Of a stretch of DNA of 64,000 bases, positions 25,898 through 61,184 are shown piece after piece; positions within the stretch are counted from its first letter, which is position 1; the number at the start of each line of letters is the position of its first letter. Made by a program: the position numbers and the translations under genes. The DNA is from Planctomycetes bacterium syqfu. GTDB taxonomy: Bacteria > Planctomycetota > Phycisphaerae > Phycisphaerales > Phycisphaeraceae. The stretch spans positions 4,836,001 through 4,900,000 of the forward strand of contig CP087563.1 of NCBI GenBank assembly GCA_020974905.1. Reading direction: 5' to 3'. A model generated the notes under the pieces. That model worked only from the letters and a program-made list of their open reading frames with translations, made no database searches and was not told where the DNA came from.

Positions 25898-26227
25898 CTA
25901 AAGAAGACTCATGAAAATGTACATACTGGTTGCTAGCCAGATAATCAATGTGGCAAAAAAGATACCGGCTTTATGCTTGCTTGTAATGAAAAAATAAATC
26001 AACGGGCAGTAGAGGCAACTCATAAACATTAAAGCATCAAACCAAATACTTCGGCTGAGATATATTATTCCAAAGGGGCCAAGAATAAATAATGGAATCT
26101 CTGTAAATAAATTGATATGCAGGTTGCTGTGTAGAAATTTAAAGCACACATTTAAGACTATAAATATTGCGGTAATGAGCAGCAGTATTGGTAAACTATG
26201 CTTTCTTGTAGCTTTTTCTGGATTCAT
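25898..26227 (-). CDS. small membrane protein of unknown function
   Basis: Protein of 109 residues with three or four hydrophobic segments (about 14-33, 43-60, 65-83 and 88-107) and no recognised domain. AT-rich, unlike leuC or lpxB. The start at 26227 is chosen for its GGGGGA site within TTATTCGGGGGA, also found before the membrane-protein gene near 37622; the frame is open 29 codons further upstream into a decayed lpxB-like sequence. No function is proposed. Confidence 0.6.
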   Translation of the reverse strand: MNPEKATRKHSLPILLLITAIFIVLNVCFKFLHSNLHINLFTEIPLFILGPFGIIYLSRSIWFDALMFMSCLYCPLIYFFITSKHKAGIFFATLIIWLATSMYIFMSLL

Positions 26228-26259
26228 TATTCCCCCGAATAAAATTCTTATATCAAAGT

Positions 26260-26330
26260 CGTTGTAATAATTGATCCGCGGCTTCGACTGAAAAGACTTT
26301 CTCATCAAACGCACTGGTCACCTTGCCTAA
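26260..26330 (-). pseudogene. decayed duplicate of the lpxB 3' end
   Basis: Read on the minus strand, about 26265-26325 translates to LGKVTSAFDEKVFSVEAADQLL, closely matching the lpxB C-terminus LAKVISAFEGKVFSTEAADKLL encoded at about 29190-29260. The nucleotide match is roughly three quarters or more over about 65 bases. It has no intact gene of its own. The intervening 2.9 kb carries the 911-residue AT-rich gene, so this segment looks inserted next to, or duplicated with, the lpxB end. Confidence 0.7.
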
Positions 26331-35817: not shown

Positions 35818-36687
35818 ATGAAACCTGCCCAAGTCTGGACAACACGGCGACTGCTCAACTGGACCACCGAGCATTTTGAAAAACGCAACATGGAGCATGC
35901 ACGTCTCTGTGCGGAGATGCTCCTGGCCCACGTACTGGGCGTGCAACGCATCAAGCTTTACATGGATCAGGATCGTCCTGCAACAGAACTTGAACGGGCT
36001 GCGTTTCGTGAACTCGTCGAACGTGCATCCAAAGACGAACCGGTGGACTACCTTGTCGGACATGCGCCGTTTTACGGGCTCACGTTCAAAGTCACACCCG
36101 CAACACTCATCCCCCGACCCAGCACCGAGACGATCATCGACCACGTGATCCGACACTGCCGCAACACGCCAGGCTTTGCTTCGCCGGTCATCGCGGACAT
36201 CGGCACGGGTAGCGGCATCATCGCAGTGACCTTAGCCAAGAACCTGCCCAAAGCCCATGTCGTCGCAACCGACATCAGCAGCGATGCATTAGCCGTTGCC
36301 AAAGAGAATGCGCAGAAAATTGGCGTTGCTGATCGCATTGAGTTTCATCAAGGTGATTTACTTTCGCCGGTCCTCAAGCATCGATTTGAGTATGTGATTT
36401 CCAACCCGCCTTACATCCCCGATCACGAATGGGATGATGTCGCGCCCAACGTCAAAGACTACGAACCGGTCACCGCGCTGCGCGGGGGCAAAGACGGTCT
36501 GCAATTTGTCCGTCCGCTGATCGAGCAAGCCAAACAGGTCTTAAACACCCCTGGCCAACTGCTCATCGAAATCGCCAGTTGCACCAAACTCGATGTCATG
36601 GATTTAGCCACCCAACACGGCTACAAAAACGTACAGGTGTTGGCGGACCACGAAAAGCTGCCACGGATTCTTGTGGCAGATGGGTGA
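35818..36687 (+). CDS. prmC: release-factor glutamine methyltransferase
   Basis: Methyltransferase of 289 residues that methylates the GGQ glutamine of peptide release factors RF1 and RF2. N-terminal helical domain 1-85 with YLVGHAPFYGLTF. SAM site DIGTGSGII at 127-135 and TDIS at 151-154. Catalytic NPPY at 196-199 in ISNPPYIPDHEW. C-terminal LIEIAS and PRILVADG are as expected. The ATG at 35818 follows directly on the long inverted repeat. No prfA is adjacent. Confidence 0.93.
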   Translation: MKPAQVWTTRRLLNWTTEHFEKRNMEHARLCAEMLLAHVLGVQRIKLYMDQDRPATELERAAFRELVERASKDEPVDYLVGHAPFYGLTFKVTPATLIPRPSTETIIDHVIRHCRNTPGFASPVIADIGTGSGIIAVTLAKNLPKAHVVATDISSDALAVAKENAQKIGVADRIEFHQGDLLSPVLKHRFEYVISNPPYIPDHEWDDVAPNVKDYEPVTALRGGKDGLQFVRPLIEQAKQVLNTPGQLLIEIASCTKLDVMDLATQHGYKNVQVLADHEKLPRILVADG

Positions 36688-36721
36688 GTGATTTGATGTT
36701 CGAATGGGGGGATTGATCTTG

Positions 36722-37051
36722 ATGGAATCAATCGATGAATTTTTAGCTTGGATATGTCGATTTGGCCCCATAGGTTTTGCTTGGCTGAGTTTTTCGATGA
36801 TCCATGACAAACACCATGAGGGATTGAACAAAATCTTATTCATACTATTTGCGTTGATTGGAATATGCTTGATCGCAAACCCCTATTGCTGGTTGGTGAT
36901 TCCTGATTTTCGAGTTTTTAATGTGAATTTTGAGACATGGATAATATGCCGTGCCTTGGTATATGTGATCTGTTTTGTTGTTGGTATTTTGGGTGTTGTG
37001 CTTGTTGATTTGGGATTCAGCCTAATTGGTGGTCGTTATTATGGCCCATGA
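36722..37051 (+). CDS. small membrane protein, PDF/GP family, member 1
   Basis: Protein of 109 residues with three hydrophobic segments. Between the second and third lies WLVIPDFRVF; the C-terminus is GGRYYGP. Both features recur in the two genes downstream, defining a local paralogue family with no recognised domain. AT-rich relative to prmC. The ATG at 36722 is preceded by GGGGGA; an ATG at 36704 would add six residues. Confidence 0.65.
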   Translation: MESIDEFLAWICRFGPIGFAWLSFSMIHDKHHEGLNKILFILFALIGICLIANPYCWLVIPDFRVFNVNFETWIICRALVYVICFVVGILGVVLVDLGFSLIGGRYYGP

Positions 37052-37096
37052 TGAATTGGAATGCTTGCCAAGTGAGATATATGACGGGGGATGATA

Positions 37097-37477
37097 ATGA
37101 GTACTTATGACTTATTGGTACGAATGACAATATTTCAAACTGCTACAGCAACTGCAGTAGTTTTGTTGTGTCTGTTTTTCCTCTTCAAGAGGCAATATCT
37201 GATTTTGCATGGTGTTCTACTTTTCTCAGCGTTATATCACAGCGTTGTTATGTGTCGCTACACATACGCTATTGTGCCGGATTTCAATTTTCTTAGCGGC
37301 AGGTATTATCTTTGGTATCTGATTAGATCGCTTCTCTATTGTGCTTGTTTAATCTCTGGCGGTTTATTGCTCAGAAGCAGTAAAAGTGTTGTGGTTAAAA
37401 TTCATTATGTATGCGCAGGCCTTGTGATTTTTGAATTGGCTTTGACACTTTTTATTGGGAAGTATATTGGCCCATAA
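37097..37477 (+). CDS. small membrane protein, PDF/GP family, member 2
   Basis: Protein of 126 residues, four hydrophobic segments. AIVPDFNFLSGRYY lies between segments 2 and 3 and the C-terminus is IGKYIGP. The start at 37097 has a GGGGGA site. It lies 45 nt after member 1 on the same strand. Function unknown; membrane location is inferred from hydrophobicity. Confidence 0.65.
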   Translation: MSTYDLLVRMTIFQTATATAVVLLCLFFLFKRQYLILHGVLLFSALYHSVVMCRYTYAIVPDFNFLSGRYYLWYLIRSLLYCACLISGGLLLRSSKSVVVKIHYVCAGLVIFELALTLFIGKYIGP

Positions 37478-37621
37478 ATAAAAAGAAACCGAGCTGTGCT
37501 CGGACTGGACTGACACAGACCAGCTCGCTGATGGCGTGGGGCGTGTTCAATTGATACAACAAGCGAGTCAAGCGTAACGTCACGGTTTTATCGAAAATAG
37601 ATGAGAGATATTATTCGGGGG

Positions 37622-37996
37622 ATGATGATGGGAATCTTGCACATTTATGGAATCGTTGTGGGGTTATTCCCGTGGTTGATGTGCGGTTTGGCGCTGATCT
37701 ATTTTGTAGTAAAAGTTGATGTTGCTCTCCATTTGTTTTTGCTCCCATTTTTTATCTTGTTGGGAGTGTATCCATTATTCAGTTTTTTTATTGTGCCGGA
37801 TTTTGAATTCGTGAGATACCACTCCGGTTTCTTCCTGATACTCAGAATGGTGAGCCGACTGATGTGTTTAGGATTCTGTGTTCTAAATGTGATGTTCAAA
37901 TCGCGGTGGCTCAAATACGGGTATTCGATTTTGCTCGGTGTGATTCTAACTGACTGTTTTCTGTCACTATTGTTTGGCCGATATATTGGGCCGTAA
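37622..37996 (+). CDS. small membrane protein, PDF/GP family, member 3
   Basis: About 122-124 residues, four hydrophobic segments. FFIVPDFEFVRY lies between segments 2 and 3, and the C-terminus is FGRYIGP. Three consecutive ATGs (37622, 37625, 37628) follow TTATTCGGGGGA; any could be the start. The gap before it (37478-37621) contains a small hairpin CCGAGCTGTGCTCGG and no gene. Function unknown. Confidence 0.62.
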   Translation: MMMGILHIYGIVVGLFPWLMCGLALIYFVVKVDVALHLFLLPFFILLGVYPLFSFFIVPDFEFVRYHSGFFLILRMVSRLMCLGFCVLNVMFKSRWLKYGYSILLGVILTDCFLSLLFGRYIGP

Positions 37997-38433
37997 AAAT
38001 TTTGTGACCCTTGTCAGGGGTGCTGTGCTACTCGCAGACTATGTCTGCTGCGTTGCTCTCACCCCTCACCCACCCCCCGGACCCCGCAAAGACATTTAAG
38101 ACAGTTGTATTGAATTTTGTGCTGTTTGAGTCGCCAGCCCCCCAAACCCCCGCCCGACCCCTGGAAGGGCAGGGCCTTGCTGCAAGACCGTAAATTTCGG
38201 GTTGATTTTGTACCATTTTGGGTAAATCGCATCATGTCGACTTTGTCTTGACTTCGTGTCCTTCGTGCTCTTCGTGACTTCGTGTTAAAAATCAAACCGA
38301 TCAATGATCGTAGGTGTTTTAAGTTTGGTGTTGGCGATTGTGACAAATATTAATTTTTCAAGGCACCCCTGGGGTTGAAACCCCAAGGCTTTAATGTGCA
38401 GTCGGGGCCAACCGGCGGTATGGGGGATGGACA
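37997..38433. other. intergenic gap with dispersed repeat words
   Basis: Starting near 38055, this gap contains CCCCCCGGACCCCGC and, near 38160, GGAAGGGCAGGGCCTTGCTG, both resembling parts of the large inverted repeat at 55617-56064. CTTCGTGTCCTTCGTGCTCT words lie near 38250, and a hairpin GGGGTTGAAACCCC near 38369. It looks like an accumulation of repeat fragments without a gene. Confidence 0.55.
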
Positions 38434-38473
38434 TAAAAAAACAACGCCGCCGAGTTATTGCCTCGGCGGCGTG
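38434..38473 (-). terminator. rho-independent terminator of dnaA
   Basis: On the minus strand the 10-bp stem CGCCGCCGAG/CTCGGCGGCG is followed by TTGTTTTTTT. It lies about 175 nt after the dnaA stop. Confidence 0.85.
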
Positions 38474-38648
38474 TTCACCTCCCTGTGATTCGTTACTCCA
38501 AACTCAGTCTCTCAACCCGTCTCGTGCCTCACAGGTGTTGGATGTTCAACCGGCGTTTTAACCTGGACCCAACGCCGGTCACATCCAGTGGTGCTAACGG
38601 TGCGACTCTCCCCATGCTTTGGTATTCACTGGGGAAAGGTTCCGGGGG

Positions 38649-40142
38649 TTAGCCGACGCGGTAAATGGCTTGTCGGCAGCGTTCAATCATCTCCGACAAA
38701 GGCATCAATGTGCCTGCTGCGGGATGGATCAGGGATTCGTCTTTTTTGAGTTGTTCAGCCAATCGCTTGGCAGCAGCAACGACACTGGAATGACTCGAAC
38801 GCTTGATCGCACGAGCGATTTCAGGAAAACTCATCGAGGTCATCTCACGGGCCAAATGCACCATGATGTTGCGGCCTAAGACGATGTCGCGATGACGACC
38901 CGGGCCGTTGACCTGCACGCGGTCGATGGCCAATTGCTCGCAGACCACATCCGCAATGCTGTCAAAGTGAACAATGCGATTGACACGGGTTTGACGCTCG
39001 GATGCAAAGGTCTGATTGACCACTGCTGGGCCGATGGCAACAGGGCCGGATTGGCCGTTACGGTGAATCAATGTTGCCATGGCATGCACGCGGGTGAGTG
39101 CGCCTTCAATCTCACGCACCGAGCCAATACAACGGGCAGCAATGAGTTGGATGGCCGCTTCGTTGAGCAGCATGTTCCGACGTTGCGCCAAAGCGACAAT
39201 GATCTTGGATCGCGTTGCCAGGTCCGGTTCGTGAACCTGCACCACCATGCCTTTGACACAACGGCTGGTCAGTGATTCGGAGAACTGCTCGATGAACTTG
39301 GGATGACTGTCGGAAGCGAGCACGACTTTTGAGCCCGCCAATTCCAGTGCATCAAAGCAGTGTAAAAACTCCTGCTGGGTTGCCTGCTTGTTGGCAATGA
39401 AGTCGATGTCATCAATGCAGAGCATTTCAAGGCGACGCATCTTACGACGGAAGCCATCGACCTTGTTGGTGCGGACCGCGGTGAGAAATTCGTTGGTGAA
39501 CGCTTCGCCGGTGACATACATCACGCGAGCGTCTTTGTCCTGATCGAGCATTTGATTGCAGATGCCTTGGAGTAAGTGCGTCTTACCCAGGCCACATCCG
39601 CCGAAGACGAAGAGCGGACCAGCGTGTTGTTCCTGGGTGGGATCGGTCATGCCTTTGGCTGCTGCGTAGGCCAGTTCGTTACTCGGGCCGACGACGAAGT
39701 CATCAAGCTTGTAACGCAGGTTCCACGGGCGACGTGACGGGCGTGAGATGGATGAGGGCACTGCACGGCTGATGAGAGGCACCTTGGTGTCCAAGGCTTG
39801 CTGGGCCTGTGTGACAGCCTGTTGTGCGGGACTGGTGCGCGGTGATGCGTCAAACAACTCCGGGCGAATTTGGATATCCAGTTCGACGCTGCTTCCCAGT
39901 TCACCTTCTGCTGCCAATTGGATTTGGCCCATGAACTGTTTACCGATGCGTCGTGCGACAAACTCGCTGGGCACTGCCAGGTTGAGCTTGTCGGTGTTTT
40001 CGTCATATTGAAGTTTTGCTGCCTTGGGGAACCATAAGTCCACCTTCCATTGTCCCAGTTGGTGTGCCAGTCGCTCGGCAATGCGAGCGCAAACGGATTG
40101 CGCCGTCGTGGTAGCTGTCACGAATCCCTCTATTCCGTGCAT
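38649..40142 (-). CDS. dnaA: chromosomal replication initiator DnaA
   Basis: AAA+ initiator of 497 residues. Domain I is about 1-90; linker 95-140; AAA+ domain with FGGCGLGKTHLLQ (about 180-192, Walker A), LCIDDIDFI (Walker B) and the sensor ASDSHP; domain IV from about 395. The DNA-binding signature, usually GRDHTTV, reads RSSHSSV at about 448-454, with Ser where the base-contacting Thr residues normally lie. The preceding block is GRNIMVHLAREMTSMSFPEIARA. Variant DnaA boxes lie upstream at 40510-40640. No dnaN, recF or gyrB is linked. Confidence 0.93.
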   Translation of the reverse strand: MHGIEGFVTATTTAQSVCARIAERLAHQLGQWKVDLWFPKAAKLQYDENTDKLNLAVPSEFVARRIGKQFMGQIQLAAEGELGSSVELDIQIRPELFDASPRTSPAQQAVTQAQQALDTKVPLISRAVPSSISRPSRRPWNLRYKLDDFVVGPSNELAYAAAKGMTDPTQEQHAGPLFVFGGCGLGKTHLLQGICNQMLDQDKDARVMYVTGEAFTNEFLTAVRTNKVDGFRRKMRRLEMLCIDDIDFIANKQATQQEFLHCFDALELAGSKVVLASDSHPKFIEQFSESLTSRCVKGMVVQVHEPDLATRSKIIVALAQRRNMLLNEAAIQLIAARCIGSVREIEGALTRVHAMATLIHRNGQSGPVAIGPAVVNQTFASERQTRVNRIVHFDSIADVVCEQLAIDRVQVNGPGRHRDIVLGRNIMVHLAREMTSMSFPEIARAIKRSSHSSVVAAAKRLAEQLKKDESLIHPAAGTLMPLSEMIERCRQAIYRVG

Positions 40143-40669: not shown

Positions 40670-41383
40670 ATGGCAAACCGGGATCACATTCTGCTTTGGG
40701 CAAAGTACCCGCGGACTCACCTGCTATTCACAACACCATTCATTTTGCCAGTTGTGATTGGGTTTGTGGTATGTGTCGTGGGTCTGATGGATCACACACT
40801 TGGTACGGGGTATTTCAATCTGGCGATCTGTGGCAAAATATGGCTTGGTTCAATCCCCTTTGTACTGATTTGGTTGGTTCTCTACTTTGTCTTGATCGTG
40901 CCGGTGATTCGTAAGCGTTTTATCTCCAGTCGACATTCTGTGCCTGATTATGATTTTCAATCAGCTATCGAGACGTATCAGTTGCGCACGACCCGGAACG
41001 AATCGAACAGTGTGATGACAGGGGGACAAGATGCTGCTGGTCAGAGAATTCAGTATATCCCCGGTCATGTGGCACTTATCCCACCTGATTTTATCTTAGC
41101 GGGGCGTATCGCATTGGCAGAATTGCTTTCCATCGATCCGATGCTGATTCATGCTGAAGATGACTGTCGCACACTTGATGGTTTAGCTCATTTCCCGGAT
41201 GCCAACTCATTCGTTGAAAAGCTGCTGTTTCATCTGGGTATGACTGACAAAATATTGATCAAACAATACCAACAGCAATTTGCACAACACATCGCTCGTC
41301 AAGTCCAAACCGTGCCTGATTTGCTCATTGAATCGTGGTATCTGTTCAATCAACAGTTCCCTGGAATGTTTGCTGGGCGGTAA
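40670..41383 (+). CDS. membrane protein of unknown function next to dnaA
   Basis: Protein of 237 residues. Two transmembrane helices lie at about 20-42 and 58-80, with little in between. The C-terminal 150 residues are probably cytoplasmic, with helical content (LLSIDPMLIHAEDD, FVEKLLFHLGMTDK, QYQQQFAQHIARQVQTVPDLLIESW). The arrangement resembles small two-helix anchors, but no family is recognised. It is transcribed away from dnaA across the candidate origin. The ATG at 40670 lies close to the last DnaA box. Confidence 0.65.
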   Translation: MANRDHILLWAKYPRTHLLFTTPFILPVVIGFVVCVVGLMDHTLGTGYFNLAICGKIWLGSIPFVLIWLVLYFVLIVPVIRKRFISSRHSVPDYDFQSAIETYQLRTTRNESNSVMTGGQDAAGQRIQYIPGHVALIPPDFILAGRIALAELLSIDPMLIHAEDDCRTLDGLAHFPDANSFVEKLLFHLGMTDKILIKQYQQQFAQHIARQVQTVPDLLIESWYLFNQQFPGMFAGR

Positions 41384-57933: not shown

Positions 57934-58695
57934 TTATGGTGCAAAGATATTGACGTTGGCAGCTCCAGCAGCATTACCAGTGTGAAGCATGACAGCGTCT
58001 TGGTCGGTTGTGTCAGCAGCAAATAAGGCATCGTTGGTGTTTGCTTTGTCGTAATACTGAGTGGATGCCATGGTGGATGTGGCTTCGAAAGTCACATGGT
58101 TGTCATTCCAACCCACACTGCCACGCCATTCTGTTGAACCCGATGTTGGATTGGTATGGACACTTTTCCAGTTTGCGGACGTTGCATTAACTTTTGCACG
58201 GTCTGAGAGAATGACAGCTTTGCTGTTTGATGTGTCACGCCATTCTTCACGAGCATCGGTTTGAATAGCAGGAACGAGCATCATTGCATACGAGTAAGTG
58301 ATCGCATTATCAACAGTATTAATTGTGACAGTAACACCAGTGTCTCCGCCAATAGCTGTTGCTTTGGTTTCAGATGGACTGATCAAATATTCAGCGGTGA
58401 AGTAGTTGTCATCAAGAAGTGCAAAGAAACGATCTGCAACATCCAGTGGCTCTGTATCATTGGTATCAGCTTTTGTGGCATCTTGTCCTTTGGTATTTGA
58501 TCCAGGATAGTAGGTGTTGTTCCCTTGGCTAAAGAGAACCAATCCTGAGTGAATACCACGGACCTGCGTGGAGTTCTGCATCTGACGAGCGGTACGACGA
58601 GCCGCACCCAGAGCAGGTAACAGAATACCAATCAGCAACGCGATGATGGAAATCACAACAAGGAGTTCGATGAGTGTGAATGCTTTATTTTTCAT
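57934..58695 (-). CDS. pseudopilin-like protein, cluster 2 member 4
   Basis: Last gene of the minus-strand cluster, 253 residues. KAFTLIELLVVISIIALLIG has Glu at +5 and Ala, not Gly, at -1. Family blocks: RTARQMQNSTQVRGIHSGLVLFSQGNNTYYPG, AEYLISPSETK, EWRDTSNSKAVILSDRAK, SVHTNPTSGSTEWRGSVGWNDNHVTFEAT. The C-terminus is truncated relative to others after ATSTMASTQYYDKAN. ATG 58695 follows an untranslated leader. Confidence 0.8.
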   Translation of the reverse strand: MKNKAFTLIELLVVISIIALLIGILLPALGAARRTARQMQNSTQVRGIHSGLVLFSQGNNTYYPGSNTKGQDATKADTNDTEPLDVADRFFALLDDNYFTAEYLISPSETKATAIGGDTGVTVTINTVDNAITYSYAMMLVPAIQTDAREEWRDTSNSKAVILSDRAKVNATSANWKSVHTNPTSGSTEWRGSVGWNDNHVTFEATSTMASTQYYDKANTNDALFAADTTDQDAVMLHTGNAAGAANVNIFAP

Positions 58696-58749
58696 AATTG
58701 TACTTTTCGTATTAATGTTTTTTTTTAAGAGAATCATTTTGTCATTACA

Positions 58750-59556
58750 TTAGTTAGCAGGAGCGCCGTCAGTGGCACCGTTGTCATAGACTTCGGCTTC
58801 ACCTTCATAAACCATGAAAGCCGTATCACCTGTTTGATAGGTTGCTGGATCATCATCTTCGTCGGCAAAAAGATCATCATCTGTTTTTGAAACGTCGCCA
58901 AACTGTGTGTCAAGTTGGTCGTGTGTGGCTTCAAATGAAACATGGTTGTCGTTGAAACCAACGCTACCACGCCATTCTTCGTCTGATGCACCAGATGGAT
59001 TGGTATGAACAGATTTAAGACCAGTACTGCCACTGGAATACTTGGCCCGATCTGAAATCACAACAGATTCACTATTACTGGTGTCACGCCATTCGTTTCG
59101 ACGAGCGCTACCCGCAGCTGCTGTAATTGCCACTCGGAGTTCAAGCATTGAATAGGAGTAATTGTTTGCAGACAAATTTTCTGCCTCATCGTATTGCGTT
59201 TTTGTTTCCGATGGACTGATCATGTATTCGGAAGTGAAGTAGTTATCAGCGTGCAAAATTTTAAATCGATTTTCAGTTTCGATTGCTGAGGCAGAAGCGT
59301 ATCCTGCGGTTGTTCCACCCGTGTTTTCAATAGTGGTTGAAACGCCACCTGTTGTTGTCATGCCAGGATAGTAAGTATTGTTACCTTGGCTAAAAAGAAC
59401 CAAAGCGGTGTGAATGCCACGGACCTGTGTGGAGTTTTGCATTTGGCGAGCGGTACGACGAGCCGCACCGAGAGCCGGTAACAGAATACCAATGAGTAAG
59501 GCGATGATTGAAATCACAACCAGAAGTTCGATCAGTGTGAATGCTTTATGTTTCAT
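58750..59556 (-). CDS. pseudopilin-like protein, cluster 2 member 3
   Basis: Paralogue of 268 residues starting MKHKAFTLIELLVVISIIAL. The body has GIHTALVLFSQGNNTYYPG, EYMISPSETKT, EWRDTSNSESVVISDRAK, EWRGSVGFNDNHVSFEATHDQLDTQFGD and an acidic tail DDLFADEDDDPATY. An AAGGA site precedes the ATG. It lies 54 nt from the next gene and 32 nt after the previous. Confidence 0.8.
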   Translation of the reverse strand: MKHKAFTLIELLVVISIIALLIGILLPALGAARRTARQMQNSTQVRGIHTALVLFSQGNNTYYPGMTTTGGVSTTIENTGGTTAGYASASAIETENRFKILHADNYFTSEYMISPSETKTQYDEAENLSANNYSYSMLELRVAITAAAGSARRNEWRDTSNSESVVISDRAKYSSGSTGLKSVHTNPSGASDEEWRGSVGFNDNHVSFEATHDQLDTQFGDVSKTDDDLFADEDDDPATYQTGDTAFMVYEGEAEVYDNGATDGAPAN

Positions 59557-59588
59557 TTGATTAAATCCTTGGAGATACTAATTTGAGA

Positions 59589-60350
59589 TTAGGGTTGGCC
59601 ACCGGCATCACCTGTTGTGCCTGAATCAACAGCTTCGTCATTACCTTCAAAAATCAAGAAACCAGTTGCGTTAGCAGTACCCTCGTTAGCAAACAGGTTG
59701 TCGTCGGAAGTGGATGTGTCGCCATATTGCAGATCCAACTGATTGTGGGTGGCTTCAAAAGTGACATGGTTGTCATTGAAGCCTACACTGCCGCGCCATT
59801 CGTCGGTGTTTAAAGAGGGATTAGTATGGACACTTTTGATATTCGTCGTGCCACTGGTTGCACCGTTGTCTTTTGCACGGTCTGAGATAACACATGCTTC
59901 ACTGTTGCTGGTGTCACGCCATTCATTTTTGCGTTGTCCTCCACTGGTGATTTCAATCAGTGAATATGAATAACTGTCAGCAGTCAACAAATTGGTTGTA
60001 GCACTGTTGTCAAATTGTGTCTTGGTTTCAGAAGGACTGATCATATATTCGGGCGTAAAGTAGTTGTCGAAAATCAATACTTTGAAACGATTCTCGGTGG
60101 TATCGCTTGCATAGCCAGTGTTTTCAGTCGTTGCTGAACCACCGGTTGTGGTCAGGCCGGGATAGTAGGTGTTATTGCCTTGGCTGAAGAGAACGATGCC
60201 GGTATGAATACCACGAACTTGCGTGGAGTTCTGCATCTGACGAGCGGTACGACGTGCTGCACCCAGAGCAGGTAAAAGAATGCCAATGAGTAAGGCGATG
60301 ATAGAAATCACAACCAGAAGTTCGATCAGAGTGAATGCTTTGTATTTCAT
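59589..60350 (-). CDS. pseudopilin-like protein, cluster 2 member 2
   Basis: Paralogue of 253 residues, MKYKAFTLIELLVVISIIAL start. Same blocks, with GIHTGIVLFSQGNNTYYPG, EYMISPSETKTQ, EWRDTSNSEACVISDRAK and FNDNHVTFEATHNQLDLQYGD. The C-terminus ends GTTGDAGGQP. Confidence 0.8.
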   Translation of the reverse strand: MKYKAFTLIELLVVISIIALLIGILLPALGAARRTARQMQNSTQVRGIHTGIVLFSQGNNTYYPGLTTTGGSATTENTGYASDTTENRFKVLIFDNYFTPEYMISPSETKTQFDNSATTNLLTADSYSYSLIEITSGGQRKNEWRDTSNSEACVISDRAKDNGATSGTTNIKSVHTNPSLNTDEWRGSVGFNDNHVTFEATHNQLDLQYGDTSTSDDNLFANEGTANATGFLIFEGNDEAVDSGTTGDAGGQP

Positions 60351-60383
60351 AATTCAAGTTTCCATTTCGTATGTAAGTGAAAT

Positions 60384-61184
60384 TTAGTCGCCATCAATAA
60401 GATCTGAATCTAAACTGAATGCCAATGCTCCATTGTCCGCTGGTGCAACAGCAGTATCGGCTGCCAAGGCATCGTCGTAGTCACTGACGCCATCTGCACC
60501 TGTGGTTTCGAAAAGATTGTCATTTGTGACAGATTGGTCTCCGAATTGTGTTTTGAGCTTGTCATGTGTAGCTTCAAAGGTGACATGGTTGTCATTGAAT
60601 CCGACGCTACCTCGCCATTCGTTACTTCCTGTAGAAGGATTCGTATGAACACTTTTTACTTCATCACCTTCACTACCTGATGCACCATTTGCTTTTGCAC
60701 GGTCACCAATAACAACTGCTTCTGAATTACTGGTTTCCCGCCATTCGTTACGGCGTTGGCCAGCTGTGCTTGCATCTGCCATCGCATAGGAGAATGCGGC
60801 GGTGGTGATTGTGCCAGTGCCATCAACATATTCTGTTTTAGTTTCAGAAGGACTGATGATGTATTCGGCGGTGAAGTAGTTATCATCCAATAGGACAAGG
60901 AATCGGTTTTCAACGGTTAATGCAGTGTGTGTTGCAGCAGTATCTTCTTTGGTGCCGTCACCACCAATGGTTGTCAAACCCGGATAGTACGTATTGTTTC
61001 CCTGGGCGAAGAGGACGAGGCCCGAGTGGATGCCGCGGACCTGGGTGGAGTTCTGCATTTGGCGAGCGGTCCGACGGGCTGCGCCTAATGCCGGCAGAAG
61101 GATGCCGATGAGCAATGCGATGATGGAGATGACCACCAACAGTTCGATGAGCGTGAACGCTCGCTTCTTGAGACTGGAGTTCAT
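60384..61184 (-). CDS. pseudopilin-like protein, cluster 2 member 1
   Basis: First gene of cluster 2, 266 residues, MNSSLKKRAFTLIELLVVIS start with a longer basic leader than the others. Blocks: GIHSGLVLFAQGNNTYYPG, EYIISPSETKTE, EWRETSNSEAVVIGDRAK, FNDNHVTFEATHDKLKTQFGD. An AAGGAGGT Shine-Dalgarno, the strongest of the four, lies before the ATG. It faces the LuxR-type gene across 613 nt. Confidence 0.8.
   Translation of the reverse strand: MNSSLKKRAFTLIELLVVISIIALLIGILLPALGAARRTARQMQNSTQVRGIHSGLVLFAQGNNTYYPGLTTIGGDGTKEDTAATHTALTVENRFLVLLDDNYFTAEYIISPSETKTEYVDGTGTITTAAFSYAMADASTAGQRRNEWRETSNSEAVVIGDRAKANGASGSEGDEVKSVHTNPSTGSNEWRGSVGFNDNHVTFEATHDKLKTQFGDQSVTNDNLFETTGADGVSDYDDALAADTAVAPADNGALAFSLDSDLIDGD

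Follow-up and report, generated by a model that had tools for sequence, protein, structure and literature searches.

In Pseudomonas, PmiA proteins confer immunity to colicin M-like bacteriocins (PMC5277000). They are about 137 amino acids long, have four predicted transmembrane helices and, apart from a short motif, D[T/S]XGXP, in which an aspartate is exposed to the periplasm, have little sequence in common (PMC5277000). Their genes usually lie downstream of the bacteriocin gene, and orphan copies without a bacteriocin gene also occur; the C-terminus was inferred to be cytoplasmic, and the first helix is a candidate signal sequence (PMC5277000). Mutation of the motif aspartate did not abolish immunity (PMC5277000), so the precedent lends the motif no proven role. 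Three tandem open reading frames (ORFs) of Planctomycetes bacterium syqfu, hereafter copies 1 to 3, and an ortholog of copy 2 in the same-genus genome UBA7800 can be likened to PmiA by description: the products are 109-126 amino acids long, with four predicted helices in copies 2 and 3 and in the ortholog. They differ from PmiA in that D[T/S]XGXP is not seen before the second helix of copies 1-3, in that their C-terminus is predicted to lie outside the cytoplasm whereas that of PmiA was inferred to be cytoplasmic, and in that no toxin was recognised beside the copies whereas PmiA is usually bacteriocin-linked.

Leukotriene C4 synthase and human PS-1, which we take to be MAPEG enzymes, are likewise small four-helix membrane proteins. 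Comparison with VIA-align gave Z 5.3-6.1, with an rmsd of 3.9-5.5 over 92-106 residues, for leukotriene C4 synthase, and Z 4.7 for PS-1 (4al0), both in a range unspecific for helical bundles, and no MAPEG profile was found in a Pfam scan up to E 10. With orphan small membrane proteins the copies share the lack of an accepted family model, the narrow range and the turnover; they differ from them in having tandem paralogs, two common motifs and an ortholog under measured selection.

The window is the whole stretch of DNA that was analysed (64,000 nucleotides; contig CP087563.1, positions 4,836,001 to 4,900,000), and the coordinates of the locus are given within it:

35818-36687, plus strand: prmC, upstream border of the variable site (Pfam PrmC_N and MTS)
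36706-36712, plus strand: GGGGGGA before copy 1, Shine-Dalgarno-like (letters read directly, putative role from the spacing)
36722-37051, plus strand: copy 1, 109 aa, ATG at 36722, tail GGRYYGP
37086-37091, plus strand: GGGGGA before copy 2, Shine-Dalgarno-like (letters read directly, putative role from the spacing)
37097-37477, plus strand: copy 2, 126 aa, ATG at 37097, four predicted helices, IVPDF, GKYIGP
37617-37622, plus strand: GGGGGA before copy 3, Shine-Dalgarno-like (letters read directly, putative role from the spacing)
37628-37996, plus strand: copy 3, 122 aa, ATG at 37628, four hydrophobic segments, IVPDF, GRYIGP
38649-40142, minus strand: dnaA, downstream border of the variable site (Pfam Bac_DnaA 1.8e-49 and Bac_DnaA_C)

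The three ORFs lie on the plus strand between prmC, the product of which is presumably the release-factor methyltransferase, and dnaA. As the initial annotation had described, their products are hydrophobic, carry [IV]PDF and end in G[RK]Y[IY]GP directly before the stop codon. The motif before helix 3 reads VIPDF in copy 1 and IVPDF in copies 2 and 3. The size range first given, 109-124 residues, was close; copy 2 has 126 residues from the start that it has in common with the ortholog (N-termini MSTYDLL in copy 2 and MSGYDLL in UBA7800), which backs this start. The GGGGGA leader had been claimed for two copies and was found before all three. Since GGGGG(G)A stands 5-9 nt before each start (9, 5 and 5 nt from the A of the G run to the ATG of copies 1, 2 and 3), the most plausible role of the leader is that of a ribosome-binding site. 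In the alignment, copy 1 has a gap of 17 columns relative to copy 2 in the region that joins helix 3 to helix 4; it may be degenerate or differently built. An Rfam search of 36000-39000 returned nothing at gathering score; one promoter-like site, on the minus strand, was found against 3.4 expected, and six terminator-like sites against 2.6 expected.

The kinship of the copies was analysed by BLASTP and by shuffling. Single pairwise comparisons gave E-values of 4e-8 (copies 1-2), 4e-5 (copies 2-3) and 9e-5 (copies 1-3), and none of 2000 shuffles matched the full-length score of any of the three pairs; the similarity among the copies exceeds chance. When the last 12 residues were removed, the score was reached by 0 (1-2), 24 (1-3) and 164 (2-3) of 2000 shuffles, and when the PDF core was masked as well, by 8, 950 and 1202, respectively. 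Against the UBA7800 ortholog at full length, copy 1 was matched by 0/2000 shuffles and copy 3, weakly related, by 45/2000. Judged by these alignments, the homology of copies 1 and 2 is firm. The kinship of copy 3 appears to come mostly from the PDF and tail motifs, because their removal or masking lets shuffles reach the score, with a common size, layout and position in addition.

Phycisphaerales bacterium UBA7800 (G003; contig DLCK01000086.1, reached by a collection scan) carries the ortholog of copy 2 at the same prmC/dnaA site; this ortholog is 126 aa long and 62% identical to copy 2 over the full length. From this single ortholog we could calculate a dN of 0.27 and a dS of 1.28 (near saturation at ∼1.3), and thus a dN/dS of 0.21, with fewer changes at the nonsynonymous sites of copy 2 (Fisher p 2e-10). 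For prmC over the same split, dN was 0.083, dS 1.26 and dN/dS 0.07, and the difference in constraint between the two genes was significant at nonsynonymous sites (Fisher p 1e-9). Copy 2 is a real gene under purifying selection, more weakly constrained than prmC. Because its dS equals that of prmC, copy 2 must have the same age as the flanking DNA, and it has been inherited vertically since the split from UBA7800. The two outcomes named beforehand as fatal to a gene family, namely no homologues anywhere and no purifying selection on the frames, did not occur: there is a syntenic ortholog, and for copy 2 selection is measurable at a dN/dS of about 0.21.

The site between prmC and dnaA varies in gene content within the genus, as seen across four genomes. 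Our genome holds three copies there; UBA7800 holds one copy and a decayed one, G001 an unrelated gene and G002 no insert. In UBA7800 the DNA directly after prmC reads, in one frame, GLLGAVLVEILFSMLGGRYFGT-stop, with the tail GGRYFGT, and the remainder of that copy is gone. Of the three copies, copy 1 aligns best with this remnant (score 77, shuffle mean 22, 0/2000), followed by copy 3 (53, 0/2000) and copy 2 (36, 13/2000). G001 is the closest relative, with a PrmC 98% identical to that of our genome, and no accepted relative of the family was found at its site or elsewhere in the assembly. Its site is occupied by a 268-aa TIR/nucleoside-deoxyribosyltransferase-like gene on the strand opposite to prmC (L047:3194-4000, minus), with matches to a PADLOC TIR effector (4.6e-13) and to Pfam Nuc_deoxyrib_tr (1.6e-8); this gene was found in one of the four same-genus genomes, with partial matches in two genomes of the order. 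G002 has only a short spacer between prmC and dnaA, without a family ORF. The absence at the site is firm for G001 and G002, as both assemblies contain it, and holds for the assembled portions of genomes that are 88% and 78% complete, respectively. Since site content differs between the four genomes, the site is variable and the family looks dispensable. A prmC relative was found in 39/41 genomes. dnaA adjoins prmC in the four same-genus genomes; among 29 prmC loci of relatives, inspected with 1.5 kb or less per side, dnaA lies beside prmC in three, all of the same genus.

An element at 38440-38640 (minus strand, 3′ of dnaA) separates the dnaA stop codon from the terminator hairpin of that gene. 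A 29-base stretch of the element occurs once in the genome. Among the four same-genus genomes it is matched nearly whole in G001, over 69-201 in UBA7800 and over 140-201 in G002; 5/61 relatives were matched, one of them, outside these four, over 32 nt. The predicted fold of a 241-nt piece is more stable than those of its shuffles (z -3.6). Near 38548-38580, inspection by eye indicated a hairpin in which both arms change in UBA7800 around a constant loop; RNAalifold with three sequences gave a different pairing there, with 2/62 pairs changed on both sides. No Rfam family matched this element above gathering score.

The range of the family is narrow. It was accepted in two of 61 related genomes (our genome, G000, and UBA7800), with 7/61 listed at E up to 1, and in one of 392 genomes sampled across the phylum, our own; UBA7800 is absent from the matches of this second search and evidently lies outside that sample. 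The 392-genome search, in which the first pass scored at most 11 candidates per genome, listed 20/392 genomes at E up to 0.1, where about 39 are expected by chance, and the best E-value other than that of our genome was 0.0037. The wide spread in planctomycetes that had been anticipated was not borne out by these counts. Weak matches were rejected, among them the following: one in our genome at 5384604 reads as another protein, presumably a sugar-ABC permease; one in G048 also reads as another protein, which we take to be a desaturase; and one in G001 (E 0.0025) lies in a 348-aa frame and involves the same query stretch as the permease match. Weak minus-strand matches in related genomes were judged by E-value and span only. 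Scans of genome contigs gave 22 candidate stretches with the three-row alignment, none confirmed, and 85 stretches with the pair of copy 2 and ortholog, where UBA7800 was the one relative confirmed. Two scans of viral contigs confirmed 0/91 and 0/62 stretches, and copy 2, the only query used there, matched nothing in phage and plasmid records up to E 10.

Profile searches were also negative. The three copies had no match in Pfam and NCBIfam, and the ortholog none in Pfam, at curated cut-offs; the best sub-threshold match was NCBIfam TuaB, which scored 17.2 bits (E 0.002) where the cut-off is 580. With the copies and the ortholog, PADLOC gave no match up to E 10 and PHROGs no significant one (best E 0.65), and a sequence search of the PDB gave none up to E 10. 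A literature search turned up no description of the family, which is no proof of its absence from print. The lack of an accepted family match, together with the syntenic ortholog of copy 2 under purifying selection, upholds the proposal of a new small membrane protein family, apparently restricted to the genus.

The structure of the products was then considered by modelling. The model of copy 2, built from a four-row alignment, had a mean pLDDT of 76.5, with helices at residues 3-30, 35-55, 70-93 and 97-120; pLDDT fell to 52-56 at residues 51-70 and to 58 at the tail. Only two strands are present, at 58-61 (AIVP) and 121-124 (GKYI), and they probably pair, because the model has no others. In this model the PDF segment and the tail would thus form a strand pair, which would bring both motifs to the same end of the helical bundle. 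The model of copy 1 had a pLDDT of 58, no strands, and short helices 3 and 4, so its tail may be placed elsewhere; as far as predictions go, this poor model is the main result against one structural role common to all copies. Hydropathy analysis gave four segments in copies 2 and 3 and in the ortholog, and only two strong ones in copy 1. Basic residues occur in loops 1 and 3 of copy 2 and of the ortholog, and in loop 3 of copy 3. Basic loops of membrane proteins are, by the positive-inside rule, cytoplasmic. Because loops 1 and 3 are basic, this rule would place the PDF/tail end outside the cytoplasm; the argument is weak, given R54 and R69 in loop 2 of copy 2 and the one K or R in each tail of our genome. 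Foldseek gave no match at E 0.001 or better against the PDB and viral models. The sole chain of 271 with a VIA-align Z of at least 8 (7tcd, Z 9.0) is an engineered fusion and was rejected as an unspecific helical-bundle match.

We propose that the copies are tandemly duplicated small inner-membrane proteins, encoded in the variable accessory region that prmC and dnaA enclose. Four helices would span the membrane, loops 1 and 3, which are basic, would face the cytoplasm, and the PDF loop would be exposed on the same face as the G[RK]Y[IY]GP tail, probably the extracytoplasmic one. There the loop and the tail would pair as short strands and close the bundle, so that the tail would act as a structural cap and not as an address. 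To the whole of this reading, a genus-restricted tandem four-helix family at a variable site with the tail as a cap, we give about an even chance of being correct. A further step would assign the proteins a membrane-embedded role in immunity or as a defence accessory, where duplication, divergence and loss are expected. This guess, the best of the specific ones, is made because of the small size, the four helices, the tandem divergence, the loss and the TIR-like gene in a relative; by analogy with known systems, such a role is conceivable and rather unlikely.

An orphan membrane gene without a role in conflict is more likely than immunity or defence. Such genes, whose products might regulate or stabilise some other membrane complex, would have the same anatomy as the family proposed above and differ from it only in function, and we regard this as a serious possibility, if somewhat short of even. 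The constraint on copy 2, below that of PrmC, the lack of the family at the site in G001 and G002, and the lack of a partner gene among the neighbours all agree with it; only the TIR-like gene at the G001 site, a hint at defence cargo, speaks against it. A Pfam scan of genes near the cassette revealed no recognisable toxin or defence gene; four of these neighbours code for DnaA, a glycosyltransferase, a pantoate ligase and a GntR/LacI-type regulator. In UBA7800 no toxin gene was recognised by eye beside the ortholog; toxin linkage was thereby checked in two genomes, the only accepted carriers of the family. Beyond dnaA, an ORF of 237 aa at 40670-41383 (plus strand) has a hydrophobic N-terminal part and no Pfam match up to E 0.01. 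The products could themselves be toxins that act on the membrane, either holin-like or as cell-killing effectors of a defence system, as they are small multi-helix proteins and the site of a sister genome holds a TIR-like gene. This is quite improbable, given that three copies lie side by side, that no antitoxin, sensor or signal synthase was recognised with them, and that PADLOC gave no match.

The initial annotation had called the C-terminal motif invariant and had suggested that the tail may be a sorting or processing signal. Invariance is seen within our genome but is lost in UBA7800: the tails read GGRYYGP, GKYIGP and GRYIGP in copies 1 to 3, GIYTGE in the ortholog and GGRYFGT in the decayed copy, so that across the five only GxYxG is constant. 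Three of six residues differ between copy 2 and its ortholog, which has PNF in place of PDF and has lost the aspartate of PDF and the K and P of the tail. A search of the 7.38-Mb genome with the back-translated tail followed by TAA, TAG, TGA or TGG gave four exact matches, the three copies and one followed by TGG and therefore without a stop; the tail stands before a stop codon exactly three times, each at this locus. It is very unlikely that a dedicated machine recognises the C-terminal hexapeptide as a sorting or processing signal, even though tail and PDF are the best-conserved stretches among the three paralogs and the tail directly follows the last helix. If a general machine read the tail, other proteins should carry it too, and the tail precedes the stop on no other protein of the genome; half of its residues differ in the ortholog, which retains GxYxG only, and in one model the tail probably pairs with the PDF segment.

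Fourfold-site GC is 0.31, 0.33 and 0.57 in copies 1, 2 and 3, 0.35 in the ortholog and 0.33 in the TIR-like gene of G001; among 49 other window ORFs listed (100 aa or more), 34 exceed 0.6, and a few have values as low as those of the cassette. For copy 2 the low GC is by itself no sign of recent import, because both lineages have it. Recent import by a mobile element, for which the low GC of copies 1 and 2 might speak, is hardly credible, since the ortholog is equally AT-rich and as old as its flanks by dS, copy 2 is unmatched in phage and plasmid records, and the viral-contig scans confirmed no relative. Other AT-rich ORFs of the window are four in tandem at 57934-61184 (minus strand), apparently paralogs with prepilin-like N-termini, each with AFTLIELLVVISIIALLIGILLPAL or a close variant, and a small hydrophobic one at 25898-26314 (minus strand; 138 aa, mean hydropathy 0.80), which had no Pfam match and was unmatched in the family search of the genome.

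The preferred reading, that of a genus-restricted tandem family with a structural cap, thus describes a narrow-range membrane gene family on which selection can be measured, yet which is missing from close relatives. The site that carries it is flanked by two housekeeping genes, and its content is different in each of the four genomes compared. It is improbable that the copies represent a new immunity or anti-phage family of membrane-embedded proteins, in which an extracytoplasmic PDF/GxYxG face would recognise an attacker and a diversifying tandem array would be maintained at the prmC-dnaA site, where another species of the genus has a TIR-like effector gene. If the immunity role were true, the family would offer a small, testable protein for the conflict biology of planctomycetes; otherwise, it would be one more orphan family.
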